From: Hymenobacter siberiensis
GTDB lineage: Bacteria; Bacteroidota; Bacteroidia; Cytophagales; Hymenobacteraceae
Reading direction: 5' to 3'
Length of the DNA: 64,000 nt
NCBI RefSeq assembly: GCF_018967865.2
Contig: NZ_JAHLZY020000001.1
Location: 434,001 to 498,000 of the forward strand
The notes below the pieces were generated by a model. That model was not told where the DNA came from, did not search any database, and saw nothing but the letters and a program-made list of their open reading frames with translations. The translations under genes were made by a program, and so were the position numbers. Of this stretch, positions 25,890 through 51,479 are shown piece by piece (the first letter of the stretch is position 1; every line of letters begins with the position of its first letter).

Positions 25890-25960
25890 AAAAAGCTCCG
25901 TTCTCCCTACATTAACTTCCCAAGTGGAACTTGGGCGTTCGGGAGCTACAGAGCTTTTCT
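25890..25960 (+). terminator. Long hairpin after the DUF3800 gene
   Basis: AAAAAGCTC..TTCTCCC at 25890 pairs with GGGAG..GAGCTTTT ending near 25958, around an inner CCAAGTGGAACTTGG hairpin. T-run on the far side; terminator-like. Confidence 0.5.
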
Positions 25961-45427: not shown

Positions 45428-45509
45428 CGCGGACTTTTAGTCCGCGAGTCCACAGCATTGAAAAAAATGTGAATGGCTGGAACCCGCGGACTAAAAGTCC
45501 GTGCTACTT
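45425..45509. repeat. CGGACTTTTAGTCCG-type inverted repeat
   Basis: GTAGCGCGGACTTTTAGTCC (45425-) and GGACTAAAAGTCCGTGCTAC (-45509) are complementary; each arm is itself a hairpin around TTT or AAA. The left arm gives the DinB stop; the right reaches the convergent namA stop. Confidence 0.82.
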
Positions 45510-46599
45510 ACCGCTGTCCAGCTGCCGAAGCCACGCGCGGCTTAGCGCGCTCATACTGTGCCGGCCACACCACCTCCGCGCCCAAATCCTGCGCCGCGAA
45601 GAGCGGGAAATACGGCTCGCGCAGGAACTCGCGGGCCAGCAGCACAAGGTCGGCCTGGCCGCTGGCCACAATGGCTTCGGCCTCGGCCGGCGTGGTGATG
45701 AGGCCTACCGCGCCGGTCAGCATCCCGGTTTCTTCCTTAATGCGCTCGGCAAACTGCACCTGGTAGCCGGGCCCTACGGGAATGGGCGCTTTGGGCACGT
45801 TGCCGCCCGTGGAGCAGTCAATCAGGTCCACGCCGCGCGTTTTGAGCAGGGCCGACAGCTGCACCGATTCGTCGGCGTTCCAGCCGCCTTCGGTCCAGTC
45901 CGTCACGGAGAGGCGCACGATTAGGGGCAGGTCTTCGGGCCATACCTCGCGGGTGGCGGCCACTACTTCCAGCAGCAGCCGGACGCGGTTTTCGAAGGTG
46001 CCGCCATAGGCATCGGTGCGCTGGTTGCTCAGCGGCGACAGAAACTCGTGCAGTAGGTAGCCGTGGGCTGCATGCAGTTCAATCACCTTGAAGCCTGCCG
46101 TGAGTGCCCGTTGGGCGGCGGCGCGGAAATCGGCAATCACCTTCTGAATACCGGCCGCGTCGAGGGCCGTGGGCACCGGATAATTGTCGTTGAACGCGGT
46201 GTCGCTGGGGCCGACTACCGGCCAGCCGCCATCGCTTTCGGGCACCACGCCCTCGCCCGACCACGGCCGGTAGGTGCTGGCCTTGCGGCCGGCGTGGGCC
46301 AGCTGCACGCCGGGCACGCTGCCCTGCGCCGTGATGAAGGCGTTGATGCGCTGGAGCATGGGCACGTGCTCATCTTTCCAGATGCCGAGGTCTTCGGGGC
46401 TGATGCGGCCCTCGGGCGATACGGCGGTGGCTTCCTGAATAATGAGGCTGGCTCCGCCCACGGCACGGCTGCCCAGGTGCACGAGGTGCCAGTCGTTGGC
46501 CAGGCCGTCTTCGGCGCTGTATTGGCACATGGGCGATACCACAATGCGGTTTTTTAGGACAACGCCGCGCAGGGCGAGGGGTTCAAATAGCTTAACCAT
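45508..46599 (-). CDS. namA: Old-yellow-enzyme NADPH dehydrogenase (NamA/YqjM type)
   Basis: 363 aa. FMN-dependent ene-reductase. KLFEPLALRGVVLKNRIVVSPMCQYSAEDG is the N-terminal strand with the YqjM-type cysteine (SPMCQYS). HAGRKAS and HAAHGYLLHEFLSPLSNQR carry the substrate-binding His pair, and GTFENRVRLLLEVV follows. Reduces alpha,beta-unsaturated carbonyls. Divergent from the aromatic operon leader region. Confidence 0.93.
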   Translation of the reverse strand: MVKLFEPLALRGVVLKNRIVVSPMCQYSAEDGLANDWHLVHLGSRAVGGASLIIQEATAVSPEGRISPEDLGIWKDEHVPMLQRINAFITAQGSVPGVQLAHAGRKASTYRPWSGEGVVPESDGGWPVVGPSDTAFNDNYPVPTALDAAGIQKVIADFRAAAQRALTAGFKVIELHAAHGYLLHEFLSPLSNQRTDAYGGTFENRVRLLLEVVAATREVWPEDLPLIVRLSVTDWTEGGWNADESVQLSALLKTRGVDLIDCSTGGNVPKAPIPVGPGYQVQFAERIKEETGMLTGAVGLITTPAEAEAIVASGQADLVLLAREFLREPYFPLFAAQDLGAEVVWPAQYERAKPRVASAAGQR

Positions 46600-46635: not shown

Positions 46636-46718
46636 CCGGATTTGGGGCGTTTGGGTTATGGTGGTACTTTGATGGAGAAACCCAGCACGACGATTCCATT
46701 TGCTTTTCCCAAATCCGG
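46636..46718. promoter_or_regulatory. 11-bp inverted repeat upstream of the aromatic operon
   Basis: CCGGATTTGGG (46636-46646) and CCCAAATCCGG (46708-46718), perfect complements 61 nt apart. The right copy lies in the spacer of the candidate leader promoter. Could be a repressor site for the aromatic operon or for the divergent namA. Confidence 0.45.
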
Positions 46719-46728
46719 CCTTACCTTG
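46699..46728 (+). promoter_or_regulatory. Candidate promoter of the aromatic operon
   Basis: TTTG (46699-46702), 19-nt spacer, TACCTTG (46722-46728), which lacks one base of the -7 consensus. Leader ORF 1 starts 20 nt later. A second possibility is TTTG 46641-46644, 20-nt spacer, TACTTTG 46665-46671. Confidence 0.45.
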
Positions 46729-46748
46729 CAGCTGTAAACGCCTTAACC

Positions 46749-46802
46749 ATGTTCCAGACGCGCTACTTTTTTGGCTATTATACCTTCTACGCCACCGCGT
46801 AG
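46749..46802 (+). CDS. Phe/Tyr leader peptide 1 (attenuator)
   Basis: 17-residue ORF with the sequence MFQTRYFFGYYTFYATA: eight of 17 residues are Phe or Tyr. It lies 305 nt upstream of pheA and is followed by an antiterminator/terminator pair. The stop codon overlaps the first base pairs of the antiterminator arm (46801-46809), so a ribosome that finishes the peptide would block the antiterminator. This is textbook leader-peptide attenuation; the reading as such is an inference from the sequence. Confidence 0.8.
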   Translation: MFQTRYFFGYYTFYATA

Positions 46803-46874
46803 AACGAGCCGCCGTTTGTAGCTAACTCCCACAAACTTCTCCAGCGCCGCTCGTTCTTCGGGAGGTGCTTTTTT
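46801..46874 (+). terminator. Attenuator 1: antiterminator and terminator
   Basis: AGAACGAGC (46801-46809) pairs perfectly with GCTCGTTCT (46849-46857): antiterminator. The competing terminator stem is AGCGCCGCTCG (46843-46853) with CGGGAGGTGCT (46859-46869), one G-A mismatch, loop TTCTT, then six T (46869-46874). The two stems share 46849-46853, so only one can form. Confidence 0.75.
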
Positions 46875-46875
46875 A

Positions 46876-46974
46876 ATGCCCGGTTTTTCGATGACCACCC
46901 TGCACCACGTCTTTTTTACCTATTGCTATTACTTCTTCTATCTGAAGAAGCCGGCCCTTTGTTGCCAGTGTTAA
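46876..46974 (+). CDS. Phe/Tyr leader peptide 2 (attenuator)
   Basis: ORF of 32 residues from the ATG at 46876 or 27 from the in-frame ATG at 46891. The middle reads VFFTYCYYFFYL, so eight Phe/Tyr in ten positions, and the end has three Cys (LCCQC). It starts 2 nt after the T-run of attenuator 1 and precedes attenuator 2. Same logic and same Phe:Tyr ratio (4:4) as leader 1. Confidence 0.8.
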   Translation: MPGFSMTTLHHVFFTYCYYFFYLKKPALCCQC

Positions 46975-47030
46975 CCACCACACTGCCTGCCAACAAACTC
47001 AGGGCCATCGCACAGCGAAGGCCCTTTTTT
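46953..47030 (+). terminator. Attenuator 2: antiterminator and terminator
   Basis: Terminator stem GGGCC-A-TCGC (47002-47011) with GCGA-A-GGCCC (47015-47024), loop ACA, then six T (47025-47030). GGCCCT at 46953-46958, inside the 3' part of leader 2, can pair with AGGGCC 47001-47006 instead, sparing the operon when the ribosome stalls earlier. pheA starts 24 nt after the T-run. Confidence 0.8.
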
Positions 47031-47053
47031 ATTGCTCAATAGTCTCACGTATC

Positions 47054-47974
47054 ATGCTCCAGCACGTTTCCATCCAGGGTTTTCAGGGAAGCTTCCACGA
47101 AGTGGCGGCCCGGCAGTATTTCGGCGCGCAGCCGGCGCTGTTGCCGTGCGCCACCTTCGGCGCGGTGGTGGCGCACGTCGTTAGCGGCACCGCCGATGCT
47201 GGTCTTATGGCCATGGAAAACTCGTTGGCCGGCAGCATTCTGCCCAACTACCTGCTGCTGGAGCGCCACGCCGTGCGCGTGACCGGCGAGGTGTACCTGC
47301 CCATTCATCAGCACCTGCTGGCGCTGCCCGGCACCACGCTGGCCGACGTGCGGGCCGTGCACTCGCACCCCATGGCCCTGCGCCAGTGCGGCGAGTTCCT
47401 GGACCAATACCCGCGCTGGAAGCTGGTGGAAACCGACGATACCGGCCACAGCGCCCAGCTTCTGGCCGAGCAGCGCACGCTGGGCGTAGCCGTGGTGGCC
47501 GGCGCCCAGGCCGCCGAGCAGTTCGGCCTGCAAATCCTGGCCCCCGCCATCCACGACGACCCGCACAACTACACCCGTTTCCTGGTGCTGGAGCGGGCGG
47601 CGACGGTGCAGTCCGACCCGCTGGCCGATAAAGCCTCGCTCTATTTCTGTGCGCCGCACGCGCCCGGCAGCCTGGCCGCCGTGCTGGCCCGCGTGGCCGC
47701 GCAGGGCCTGAATTTGAGCAAGCTGCAATCGTGCCCCCGGCCCGGGCATGCTCGTACCCCGGTAGGGGCCTGGCACTACGGCTTCCATGCCGATGTGGAG
47801 TTTGAAGAAATGAGCCAACTGACAGCTCTGCTGCAGGATTTAGCCCCCGTGACGGAGGAGCTACGGGTGCTGGGAGCCTACCGGCGCGGCAGCATGGCCG
47901 AGGCAATGGGCGACGACACTCCCCTTCTTACCAAGGAGGGGATGCCGGCGCAAAGCGCCGGCTGGGGTGGTTAG
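47054..47974 (+). CDS. pheA: Prephenate dehydratase
   Basis: 306 aa. Converts prephenate to phenylpyruvate (Phe branch). VSIQGFQGSFHEVAARQYFG starts the catalytic domain; the catalytic TRF is in HNYTRFLVL and the essential ENS in MAMENSLAGSI. The C-terminal ACT domain (GSLAAVLARVAAQGLNLSKLQS) binds Phe for feedback inhibition; the usual ESRP motif appears as QSCPRP. The last about 20 residues (TPLLTKEGMPAQSAGWGG region) and the stop are encoded by a palindromic repeat, so the native C-terminus was extended. First gene of the operon, behind two attenuators. Confidence 0.93.
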   Translation: MLQHVSIQGFQGSFHEVAARQYFGAQPALLPCATFGAVVAHVVSGTADAGLMAMENSLAGSILPNYLLLERHAVRVTGEVYLPIHQHLLALPGTTLADVRAVHSHPMALRQCGEFLDQYPRWKLVETDDTGHSAQLLAEQRTLGVAVVAGAQAAEQFGLQILAPAIHDDPHNYTRFLVLERAATVQSDPLADKASLYFCAPHAPGSLAAVLARVAAQGLNLSKLQSCPRPGHARTPVGAWHYGFHADVEFEEMSQLTALLQDLAPVTEELRVLGAYRRGSMAEAMGDDTPLLTKEGMPAQSAGWGG

Positions 47975-48117: not shown

Positions 48118-49296
48118 ATGAACATCCCCATTGCCAGCCGCTTAGCCCACACCGGCGAATACTACTTCTCACGCAAGCTCCGCGAGCTGGCCGCGCTCAA
48201 TGCGGCCGGGGCCAACATCATCAGCCTGGGTATTGGCAGTCCCGATTTGCCACCGCATCCCAGCGTGATTGCGGCGCTGGCTGCTTCGGCCGCGCAGCCC
48301 ACCGCGCACGGCTACCAGGGCTACCAGGGCACGCCGGCCCTGCGCGGGGCGATGGCCGAATTCTACCAGCGGCATTACGGCGTGGCGCTCGACCCAACTG
48401 CTGAAATCCTGCCGCTGCTGGGCTCGAAAGAGGGCCTGATGCACATCGGGATGACGTTTCTGGAAGCGGGTGATGCCGTGCTCATCCCCAACCCCGGCTA
48501 CCCGACTTACCGCGCCGTGGCCGAAATATGCGGGGCCGAGGTGCGCGAGTACGACCTGACCGAGGCCGCCGGCTGGCTGCCCGATTTAGATGCGCTGGCC
48601 GCTACCGACCTCTCGCGGGTGAAGCTCATGCTGGTGAACTATCCACACATGCCCACCGGCACGGCCGCCGATTTGCCGTTTCTGACGCGCCTGGTGGCCT
48701 TTGCCACGGCCCACAACATTCTGCTCGTTCACGACAATCCCTATGGCTTTATCCTGAACGAGACGCCGCCCGTGAGCCTGCTGGCCGTGCCCGGGGCCCG
48801 CGAAGTGGCTATCGAGCTGAACTCGCTCAGCAAGAGCCATAACATGGCGGGTTGGCGCGTTGGCCTGCTCGCCGGCCGCGCCGATGTCATCGCCAACGTG
48901 CTCCGCTTCAAGAGCAACATGGACTCGGGCATGTTTCTGCCGGTGCAGCAGGCCGCCGTGGCCGCCCTGGCGCTGGGCGACGAATGGTTCCGGGAGCTCA
49001 ATGCCACTTACCGCGCCCGCCGTGAGCTGGTGCTGGAGCTGCTGCGCGCCCTAGGCTGCCAGCCCGCGCCGGGCCAGACAGGCCTGTTTATTTGGGCGGC
49101 GGTGCCGGCTGGTTTCGCCGATGGCTACGCCCTGAGCGATGCCGTGCTGGCCGAAGCGCGGGTGTTCCTTACGCCGGGCGGCATTTTTGGGAGCAATGGG
49201 CTCGGCTACATCCGGGCCAGCCTGTGCCAGCCGGAAGCGCTGCTGCGCGAGGCGGTTCTGAGGGTTAAGAGTTATAGGTTAAAAGTTAAGAGTTGA
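48118..49296 (+). CDS. PLP aminotransferase (aromatic/aspartate type)
   Basis: 392 aa, class I aminotransferase. GIGSPDLPPH, GYPTYRAV, NYPHMPTGT and the PLP lysine in NSLSKSHNMAGWR are clear, and the substrate carboxylate Arg is in YIRASLCQP. In this operon it most likely transaminates phenylpyruvate and hydroxyphenylpyruvate (or prephenate). The last residues (VKSYRLKVKS) and the stop are contributed by a GTTAAAAGTTA-type repeat. Confidence 0.9.
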   Translation: MNIPIASRLAHTGEYYFSRKLRELAALNAAGANIISLGIGSPDLPPHPSVIAALAASAAQPTAHGYQGYQGTPALRGAMAEFYQRHYGVALDPTAEILPLLGSKEGLMHIGMTFLEAGDAVLIPNPGYPTYRAVAEICGAEVREYDLTEAAGWLPDLDALAATDLSRVKLMLVNYPHMPTGTAADLPFLTRLVAFATAHNILLVHDNPYGFILNETPPVSLLAVPGAREVAIELNSLSKSHNMAGWRVGLLAGRADVIANVLRFKSNMDSGMFLPVQQAAVAALALGDEWFRELNATYRARRELVLELLRALGCQPAPGQTGLFIWAAVPAGFADGYALSDAVLAEARVFLTPGGIFGSNGLGYIRASLCQPEALLREAVLRVKSYRLKVKS

Positions 49297-49365: not shown

Positions 49366-50211
49366 ATGACCGTCACCATCATCGGACTGGGCCTTATCGG
49401 CGGTTCGCTGGCACTGAGCCTGCGGCAGCACGGGCTGGCGCAGCACCTCATCGGGGTTGAAAACAGCCCGGCCCACGCCCGGCGTGCTTTGGAATTAGGC
49501 TTGGTCGATGAAATCGAAACCGACCTGACGGCCGCCGTGCGCCGCGCCGACCTCGTGGTGGTAGCCGTACCTGTGGATGCTATGGTAGCCGTACTGCCGC
49601 CGGTGCTCGACCTCATCACCCCAAAGCAGGTGGTTATCGACGTGGGCTCGACCAAGCAGGCGCTGCTGGCGGCCGTGGCCGGGCACCCGCAGCGGGGCCG
49701 TTTTGTGGCTGCGCACCCCATGGCGGGTACCGAGCATTCGGGGCCGGAAGCGGCCATTTTGGGGCTGTTTGAGGGTAAAACGGTGGTGCTGTGCGACGTG
49801 GCTGCCAGCGACCCCGACGCCGTGCAGCTGGTCGAAAAGCTGTTCCAGGCGCTACCCATGCGACTGCTGTACCTCGATGGGGCGGCACACGACCTGCACA
49901 CGGCCTACGTTTCGCATATCTCGCACATTACCTCATTTGCCCTGGCGCTCACGGTGCTGGAAAAGGAGAAGGAGGAACAGCAGATTTTCGACCTGGCCAG
50001 CGGCGGATTTGAGTCGACGGTGCGGCTGGCCAAGAGTGCGCCGGCGACCTGGGTGCCGATTTTCCGGCAAAACCGGCTCAACGTGCTCGATGTGCTCGAT
50101 GAGCACCTGCACCAATTACAGCACCTGCGCGAGCTGCTGGCGCGGGAAGACTACGAGGGGCTAACGGAACAGATTCGGCAGGCCAACCACATTCGGAAAA
50201 TTTTGCCGTGA
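49366..50211 (+). CDS. tyrA: Prephenate dehydrogenase
   Basis: 281 aa. NAD-binding GLGLIGGSLAL at residues 6-16, then DVGSTKQALL, and the conserved HPMAGTEHSG with the catalytic His. Makes 4-hydroxyphenylpyruvate from prephenate (Tyr branch). No ACT or chorismate-mutase domain; the mutase is on the next gene. Confidence 0.93.
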   Translation: MTVTIIGLGLIGGSLALSLRQHGLAQHLIGVENSPAHARRALELGLVDEIETDLTAAVRRADLVVVAVPVDAMVAVLPPVLDLITPKQVVIDVGSTKQALLAAVAGHPQRGRFVAAHPMAGTEHSGPEAAILGLFEGKTVVLCDVAASDPDAVQLVEKLFQALPMRLLYLDGAAHDLHTAYVSHISHITSFALALTVLEKEKEEQQIFDLASGGFESTVRLAKSAPATWVPIFRQNRLNVLDVLDEHLHQLQHLRELLAREDYEGLTEQIRQANHIRKILP

Positions 50212-50396: not shown

Positions 50397-51479
50397 ATGA
50401 ACCCAACCATGAAATCCGCCCTCTTCAATCGTCAGCCCGACGACAAGCCCTACCTCATTTCCGGCCCATGCTCGGCCGAAACCGAGGAGCAGGTGCTCGA
50501 AACCTGCCAGCGGCTGGCTGCTACCGGCAAGGTGCAGGCCCTGCGCGCCGGCATCTGGAAACCCCGCACCAAGCCCGGCGGCTTCGAGGGCGTGGGCACC
50601 AAGGGGCTGCCCTGGCTCAAGAAGGCCAGTGAGCTGACCGGCCTGCCCATTGCCGTGGAAGTGGCCACGGCCAAGCACGTAGAAGACTGCCTGGCCTTCG
50701 GCGTGGACATCCTATGGGTGGGCGCACGCACCACGGGCAACCCGTTTTCGGTGCAGGAAATTGCCAACGTGCTGCGCGGCGTGGACGTGCCGGTGCTGGT
50801 GAAAAACCCCATTCACCCCGAGTTGGAGCTGTGGGTGGGCGCCGTGGAGCGCCTGCAAAAGGCCGGCCTCACGCACGTCGGCCTCATTCACCGGGGTTTT
50901 TCGAGCTACGGCAACACCGACTTCCGCAACGCGCCGATGTGGCACCTGCCCATTGAGATGAAACGCCGGATGCCCGAAATGCCGCTGCTCTGCGACCCCA
51001 GCCACATCTGCGGCCGGCGCGATACGCTGGCGGCCGTGGCCCAGCAGGCCCTCAACCTGGGCTTCGATGGCAACATGATTGAAAGCCACATCGACCCCGA
51101 CAATGCCTGGAGCGATGCCAAGCAGCAAATCATTCCGGAAGTGCTGCGCGACCTGATTCAGAACCTGGTGTGGCGGCACGAAACCACCAACGCGCAGGAA
51201 TTCCTTTCGGCCCTCACCGGCCTGCGCGAACAAATCAATCAGCTCGATGCCGAGGTGATGCAGCTGTTGGGCCGCCGAATGGCCGTGGCCGAAAAAATTG
51301 GTCTGTACAAGAAGGAAAACGACATCACCATCCTCCAGACCAGCCGCTGGAACGAGGTGCTGGAACGCGCCCAGCGCCAGGGCGCATCAGTGGGCCTCAC
51401 CACTGATTTCGTGGAGCAGTACCTGGCCGCCGTGCACCTGGAATCCATCAGCCGCCAGAATAAGGTGATGGAAGGTTAG
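50397..51479 (+). CDS. Bifunctional DAHP synthase / chorismate mutase
   Basis: 360 aa. Residues about 15-265 are a class-Iβ 3-deoxy-7-phosphoheptulonate synthase (first shikimate step): ISGPCSAE, KPRTKPGG-type block WKPRTKPGGFEG, CDPSHICG. Residues about 270-360 are an AroQ chorismate mutase (LREQINQLDAEVMQLLGRRM...AEKIGLYKKEN, catalytic Arg and Lys). One protein thus controls entry and the prephenate step. A second ATG, at codon 4, is possible. Last gene of the operon. Confidence 0.94.
   Translation: MNPTMKSALFNRQPDDKPYLISGPCSAETEEQVLETCQRLAATGKVQALRAGIWKPRTKPGGFEGVGTKGLPWLKKASELTGLPIAVEVATAKHVEDCLAFGVDILWVGARTTGNPFSVQEIANVLRGVDVPVLVKNPIHPELELWVGAVERLQKAGLTHVGLIHRGFSSYGNTDFRNAPMWHLPIEMKRRMPEMPLLCDPSHICGRRDTLAAVAQQALNLGFDGNMIESHIDPDNAWSDAKQQIIPEVLRDLIQNLVWRHETTNAQEFLSALTGLREQINQLDAEVMQLLGRRMAVAEKIGLYKKENDITILQTSRWNEVLERAQRQGASVGLTTDFVEQYLAAVHLESISRQNKVMEG

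Follow-up and report, generated by a model that had tools for sequence, protein, structure and literature searches.

Two predicted Phe/Tyr leader-peptide attenuators in series before the aromatic amino acid operon of Hymenobacter siberiensis

Upstream of pheA in a 64,000-nucleotide stretch of the Hymenobacter siberiensis genome (hereafter the window), we found two complete, non-identical leader units placed one after the other. Each comprises a short ORF with a cluster of four Phe and four Tyr codons, followed by a predicted terminator and an antiterminator that exclude each other. The ORFs, their codon clusters, the exclusive folds, the co-variation of the paired strands, the conservation of the pair and the nature of the downstream operon all follow from sequence and comparison with relatives. 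Based on these features, we consider it highly probable that the two units are ribosome-mediated transcription attenuators acting in series before the pheA-aminotransferase-tyrA-aroG/CM operon, each opened by a shortage of Phe or Tyr, with read-through multiplying from one to the next.

Organization of the Leader Region and of the Operon

Both leader ORFs are contained in the 454-nt gap between pheA and namA, which lies on the minus strand (Table 1). The operon brings together the Phe branch, the Tyr branch and the entry enzyme. In 37 of 42 named loci, the aminotransferase, tyrA and DAHP synthase-chorismate mutase genes all lie 3′ of pheA on the same strand; of the five exceptions, L009, L015, L036 and L038 are on short contigs, and L044 yielded no tyrA. 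Farther 3′ of the aromatic operon, the window holds an IS4-family transposase (PF01609, 52691-54142).

In each unit, the 3′ strand of the antiterminator overlaps the 5′ arm of the unit's own terminator, so that the two folds are mutually exclusive. Both units have three of the features by which leader-peptide attenuators are recognized: clustered end-product codons, a terminator before pheA and a co-varying antiterminator. The true start of ORF2 is probably the ATG at 46891 rather than the in-frame upstream ATG, because the latter is missing in some relatives (e.g., L004, L011 and L014); from this likely start, leader 2 takes the short form (M)..MTTLHHVFFTYCYYFFYLKKPALCCQC.

A candidate promoter of the Bacteroidota type (-33/-7) with a TACCTTGC site precedes ORF1. 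Across 99 regions, the best-scoring promoter site was TTTG-N19-TACCTTGC in 13 and CTTG-N19-TACCTTGC in 6 more, the remainder being other motifs. Transcription could instead begin at two promoters, unit 1 then ending a separate short RNA or regulating one transcript and a second start feeding unit 2 alone; that a generic scan detected no sigma-70 promoter in the intergenic region fits this view. However, in the window ORF2 has its first ATG one base past the T6 run of terminator 1, so such a promoter would sit within the terminator, and the candidate Bacteroidota-like promoter is located upstream of ORF1. A scored scan between the units, incidental and covering four loci (L012, L076, L077 and L080), reached 7/10 at best. 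Two separate starts are thus very unlikely, and a single transcript would carry both leader units.

Table 1. Features of the leader region and of the aromatic operon, in window coordinates
Feature	Position	Strand	Details
Candidate leader promoter	46699..46729	+	TTTG 46699-46702, 19 nt, TACCTTGC 46722-46729; by sequence only
Leader ORF1	46749..46802	+	Peptide MFQTRYFFGYYTFYATA, then stop; 4 Phe, 4 Tyr
Protector hairpin (1:2), attenuator 1	46785..46804	+	TTCTACGC / GCGTAGAA; folding, swap test
Antiterminator 1, 5′ strand	46798..46812	+	Folding; swap test; co-variation
Antiterminator 1, 3′ strand	46846..46860	+	Overlaps terminator 1
Terminator 1	Hairpin 46843-46869, T6 46869-46874	+	Predicted, -14.8 kcal/mol
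Leader ORF2	46876..46974	+	Peptide MPGFSMTTLHHVFFTYCYYFFYLKKPALCCQC, then stop; cluster of 4 Phe and 4 Tyr, 1 extra Phe upstream
Antiterminator 2, 5′ strand	46953..46968	+	Within ORF2
Antiterminator 2, 3′ strand	46987..47006	+	Overlaps terminator 2
Terminator 2	Hairpin 47001-47025, T6 47025-47030	+	Predicted, -17.1 kcal/mol
pheA, prephenate dehydratase	47054..47974	+	PF00800 above cut-off; NCBIfam prephenate dehydratase models below theirs
Class I/II aminotransferase	48118..49296	+	PF00155
tyrA, prephenate dehydrogenase	49366..50211	+	NF006307 above cut-off; PF02153/PF20463
DAHP synthase-chorismate mutase fusion	50397..51479	+	PF00793 and PF01817
namA-like FMN oxidoreductase	45508..46599	-	PF00724; NamA model slightly under cut-off; divergent neighbor, outside the switch

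Expectation by Chance

For these counts, a unit was defined as a stretch of 14 codons with at least seven F or Y and, 5-75 nt farther on, a hairpin and a T-run. The intergenic region was shuffled 2000 times with its dinucleotides preserved; one F/Y-rich ORF appeared in 23 shuffles and two in none, and the combination of F/Y ORF and terminator occurred in 0 of the 2000 shuffles and in 0 of 3078 control windows, each of 454 nt and taken from both strands of related loci. Cutting the 64-kb window into 560 tiles gave 2 positives, one per known unit. An earlier note on this DNA had described two complete Phe/Tyr attenuators in series, and the pair is indeed found in the window and absent from these shuffles and controls. 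The bare F/Y-codon pattern derived from leader 1 proved uninformative as a genome-wide marker, with 5 matches in the genome versus 9 for the reversed control; the rarity resides in the F/Y pattern combined with a short ORF and a terminator.

A generic terminator scan, which requires an unbroken 5-pair stem and a loop of 3-8, returned 0 terminators in the intergenic region versus 1.5 expected in shuffles. Both hairpins were missed because of an internal mismatch, the stem and loop limits excluding them. Rfam 15 likewise gave no leader, T-box, riboswitch or other cis-regulatory family in the window; in this region nothing reached the gathering threshold, the suhB and BjrC1505 matches there being far under their gathering scores (E 0.41-1.1) and taken as chance. 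Searching 15 loci of relatives returned no leader family, the sole match being Flavo-1 in L199 (2434-2511). Elsewhere in the window, a DUF3800-VIII RNA was matched at 25892-25957 on the minus strand (56.9 bits).

Distribution of the Tandem Among Relatives

We compared 102 regions upstream of pheA, made up of 42 of 44 named loci (L039 and L040 were left out, their upstream sequence being missing) and 60 places chosen from the 168 of 204 family genomes that had a pheA match; L036 and L114 are the same place. A script counted two units in 57 regions, one in 42 and none in 3. By eye, six of the regions scored as one unit are tandem (L005, L012, L076, L102, L077 and L080, the last two judged from the first leader and first terminator), which gives a total of 63/102. 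The three scored as none all show a leader and a hairpin, the hairpin being followed by four T in L124 and L126 and by no T-run in L044. The tandem is present in 56/76 Hymenobacter regions, 3/3 of the related genus g6 and 4/12 of a third genus, g5, and absent from the regions examined in g2 (0/7), in g4 (0/1) and outside the family (0/3). The pair is therefore not peculiar to this window: its conservation before pheA in relatives, for which the earlier note had suggested a search, is borne out in 56 of the 76 Hymenobacter regions sampled, with the F/Y codons kept. In single-unit Hymenobacter, the remaining unit resembles the first. In six of these (L075, L078, L079 and L082-L084), the leader ORF overruns the usual stop and ends in ..SRAAVL 20 nt before the terminator.

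A wider survey covered the 82 best-scoring loci, not a random sample, from searches of the phylum, order and class. A single F/Y leader with a terminator was found in 13/21 loci of the class outside the order, in 4/29 of the order outside the family, including the doubtful L178, whose “leader” looks like chance, and in 0/28 loci outside the class. Long N-terminal extensions are frequent among the pheA genes from the order outside the family. No locus outside the family had two units in this survey, and of the four loci from the family itself, two scored two units; L194 and L212 scored one, with both leaders visible in each.

Codon Usage in the Leaders and Co-variation of the Paired Strands

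Codon columns were counted over 53 tandem loci, namely the 57 scored by the script without the four from g5. In leader 1, F or Y fills the cluster columns in 89-100% of these loci; column 10 (F in 52/53) and column 16 (Y in 48/53) are nearly fixed, and F and Y exchange at several others, as in column 14 (F 24, Y 23). Both codons of Phe and both of Tyr are used. Such exchange and synonymous codon use form the informative part of the pattern, because the finder itself requires F/Y-rich ORFs. Every leader 1 retains at least one F and at least three Y, and every leader 2 at least two F and at least two Y; since both amino acids are present in all leaders, both gates should sense Phe and Tyr. In L005 (-236 to -62 before pheA), the ORF2 stop codon is lost and the reading frame crosses terminator 2, a possible sign of decay or retuning of the second gate.

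Strand pairing was assessed by a swap test, in which pairs from the same species were compared with strands exchanged between species over 5000 permutations, relatedness being ignored. For antiterminator 1, own strands reached -16.39 kcal/mol versus -12.37 for swapped strands (36 distinct pairs), and for antiterminator 2, -17.65 versus -16.10 (52 distinct pairs), with 0/5000 permutations as good in either case. The terminators also gave 0/5000, in a test that is partly circular for them, and the protector of unit 1 gave 0/5000; that of unit 2 was not convincing, with 228/5000 permutations as good. Changes on both sides of a pair were seen at 13 positions in antiterminator 1 and 18 in antiterminator 2, in a table that was itself fitted to pairing and for which the swap test serves as control. 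The pairs were counted on anchored strands, because MAFFT alignments slide the 5′ antiterminator strand between groups. Variants of the unit 1 helix include GAACGAGC/GCTCGTTC, GTCGAGCGGC/GCCTCTCGAC, GCAGCGAGGCCT/AGCGCCTCCTGC and CCGAGGCCGCTT/AAGCGCCTTCGG, some of them bulged. Compensatory stem changes, for which the earlier note had proposed a test, are thus present in both antiterminators.

These data also bear on a rival reading, in which the leaders are kept for small aromatic peptides with a function of their own and the RNA folds arise by accident. Some leader 1 residues are conserved beyond the cluster (R in 43/53, A in 48/53), as would be expected of such peptides; yet residues after the cluster coincide with the pairing RNA strands, the paired strands co-vary, F and Y interchange at several positions and the ORFs are located before a Phe/Tyr operon. 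A function of the peptides themselves therefore seems extremely improbable.

Proposed Mechanism and Ribosome-Masked Folding

We propose that, when charged tRNA-Phe and tRNA-Tyr are ample, the ribosome translating the leader would reach its stop codon and mask the 5′ strand of the antiterminator, so that the terminator would fold. If either charged tRNA were short, the ribosome would stall in the F/Y cluster, the antiterminator would fold and transcription would continue. Transcription past the first gate would enter the second leader, where the same test would be repeated, and the operon would be read solely when both gates had been passed, with a total read-through of about p1 times p2. Because each leader mixes Phe and Tyr codons, shortage of either should open a gate (OR), and because both gates must be passed (AND), read-through should multiply. 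The AND-like gates put forward by the earlier note are therefore kept for the two stages and given up for the two amino acids: a gate that needs Phe and Tyr as joint inputs is rejected, both leaders mixing both codons. Two gates would widen the range and steepen the response, and if equal, they would square the fold-induction and double the log-gain.

We modeled this switch by equilibrium folding with a ribosome masking part of the leader. In L001, a copy of the same species as the window, the probability of terminator 1 was 0.97 without a ribosome and 1.0 with a ribosome at the stop codon; it fell to 0.00-0.36 when the A site held cluster Y, F, F, G, Y, Y, T or F, and was 0.76 with the last Y there. 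Terminator 2 of L001 dropped just to about 0.6 with a stalled ribosome. Over the 53 tandem loci, the terminator forms with the ribosome at the stop codon in 53/53 (unit 1) and 52/53 (unit 2). Predictions for the stalled state vary among the loci. When F/Y positions occupy the A site, the median probability of the terminator stays under 0.3 in 14/53 (unit 1) and 18/53 (unit 2) and exceeds 0.7 in 31/53 and 24/53, and the lowest F/Y position is below 0.3 in 34/53 and 30/53. In the ribosome-free fold, the terminator is itself under 0.3 in 5/53 and 13/53, respectively.

We also scored sequestration, that is, whether the 5′ terminator arm is paired at >0.5 before the 3′ arm is made, an arm covered by the ribosome counting as 0. 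By this score, a ribosome at the best F/Y position leaves the 5′ arm sequestered in 52/53 (unit 1) and 53/53 (unit 2), and one at the stop codon does so in 2/53 and 0/53. The contrast between stall and stop exceeds 0.3 in 52/53 for unit 1 (L017 being the exception), in 47/53 for unit 2, where six loci fail, and in 36/36 single units. In L001, ribosome positions before the cluster sequester the 5′ arm equally, and shuffled spacers, a weak control, do so at >0.5 in 63% (unit 1) and 79% (unit 2); the measure therefore backs the model more for a ribosome at the stop codon than for a stalled one.

Origin of the Tandem and the Role of the Second Unit

The history of the pair was traced on a quickly made tree of 82 PheA proteins, 42 from the named loci and 40 from among the 60 chosen places; its support is SH-aLRT only, several branches are long and the outgroup does not fall on one side of a branch. 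On it, the tandem or single label changes six times, five of these changes being forced by starred branches. Read most simply, the tree would imply a single gain at the base of Hymenobacter and g6, loss of the second unit in the L075/078/079/082 group and in the group holding L021 to L042, and a separate gain of a tandem in g5, beside a very divergent pheA. The g5 tandems are L122, L123, L125 and L127, of which three have their pheA, very divergent, in the tree; this tandem or its divergent pheA was possibly acquired by transfer.

Aligning unit 1 with unit 2 gave z >3 over mononucleotide shuffles in 25/57 loci and >5 in 14/57, with the strongest likeness in L105 (z 16, about 100 columns). No such likeness appears in 32/57 loci, and the shared F/Y codons explain part of it elsewhere; in L122 from g5, the best unit-to-unit match is 12 nt. 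Within the Hymenobacter line, comparison of the units suggests that the tandem probably arose by duplication of one Phe/Tyr attenuator. On balance, we lean toward a history in which a leader-peptide attenuator was duplicated in the ancestor of Hymenobacter and its related genus, the pair was maintained by selection as a two-stage multiplying gate for the same signal, some lineages reverted to one unit and a separate tandem arose elsewhere in the family.

The losses raise the question of whether one attenuator does the sensing, the other terminator being a constitutive backup or a relic. If the tree is read in the simplest way, there were at least two losses of the second unit, so that one unit suffices; the unconvincing protector of unit 2, its less clean folding in L001 and the missing ORF2 stop codon in L005 point the same way. 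A constitutive terminator, however, needs neither F/Y codons nor a co-varying antiterminator, and both leaders keep the former and both units the latter, in genomes with a pheA down to 54% identical to that of the window (G042). A single sensor is thus unlikely, and we retain the reading that both units respond to Phe or Tyr shortage.

Relation to Known Systems and Significance

Leader-peptide attenuators are familiar from Proteobacteria, as the earlier note stated, where the textbook cases for pheA, trp and his comprise one unit for one amino acid. Like them, the present leader has an ORF with regulatory codons, an overlapping antiterminator and terminator, and a biosynthetic operon downstream; unlike them, it has two units and mixed Phe/Tyr codons, occurs in Bacteroidota and matches no Rfam leader family. 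T-boxes bind tRNA directly, whereas here a translating ribosome is proposed to read the codons, and the window gave no T-box match.

Attenuation by leader peptides is not confined to Proteobacteria, being recorded for hisS of bacilli (PMC2965389) and in Actinobacteria (PMC1262725). Tandem attenuators, of which the earlier note knew no described case with two full units, also have precedents. In bacilli, thrZ and trpE are preceded by multiple adjacent T-boxes, which are likewise transcription attenuators of the same kind in series (2 or 3) (PMC2494555). The anatomy of such a same-signal series, with a sensor and a terminator for each unit, is present here, and the two units would lie on a shared transcript. 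The Salmonella mgtCBR leader contains tandem attenuators that respond to different signals (ATP and proline) in an additive manner; metE, unlike mgtCBR, has two intrinsic-terminator sites (PMC3641672). Both mgtCBR and the present leader place two short ORFs in one leader RNA before one operon, whereas in the present leader Phe and Tyr codons occur together in both units and each unit has its own predicted terminator. In some Gammaproteobacteria, the rimP leader has a second terminator in tandem with a potential antiterminator, and the passage that describes it mentions no leader peptide or amino acid codons (PMC2965389). What stands of the claim of novelty is narrower: among the matches listed from the open-access literature, none was a tandem of leader-peptide attenuators for the same signal, and none was a Phe/Tyr leader in Bacteroidota, the latter in agreement with the earlier note.

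The same genome contains two other leaders, which both look single. A leader ORF with five consecutive His (..AGVHHHHHLWEAGLCAGC) lies before hisG (L257, G000:C1 about 2359300-2359450), with no terminator found by the script, and a WWW leader followed by a strong terminator precedes a trpE-like gene (L259, G000:C1 about 2024700-2024880). Near these his and trp leaders, Rfam matched only Leu_leader, at 25.4 versus a 50-bit threshold. Bacteroid-trp (RF01692), which we take to be a trp leader attenuator, had no match in the window or in the trp leader of this genome. That RNA motif, listed for Bacteroidetes in PMC2864571, resembles the present case as candidate leader regulation in the same phylum and differs in concerning Trp. 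Two further chorismate-binding genes and ilvD gave no leader with terminator in this genome, in which, among the few operons examined, stacking seems special to the Phe/Tyr operon.

If the proposed mechanism is true, it adds a Phe/Tyr leader family in Bacteroidota and means that ribosome-mediated attenuators, like T-boxes, can be duplicated and stacked. Relatives differ in having one or two units in front of this operon, so that what a second stage does to range, steepness and leak would be directly measurable, and the tandem would thus offer a natural test of the benefit of a second attenuation stage.
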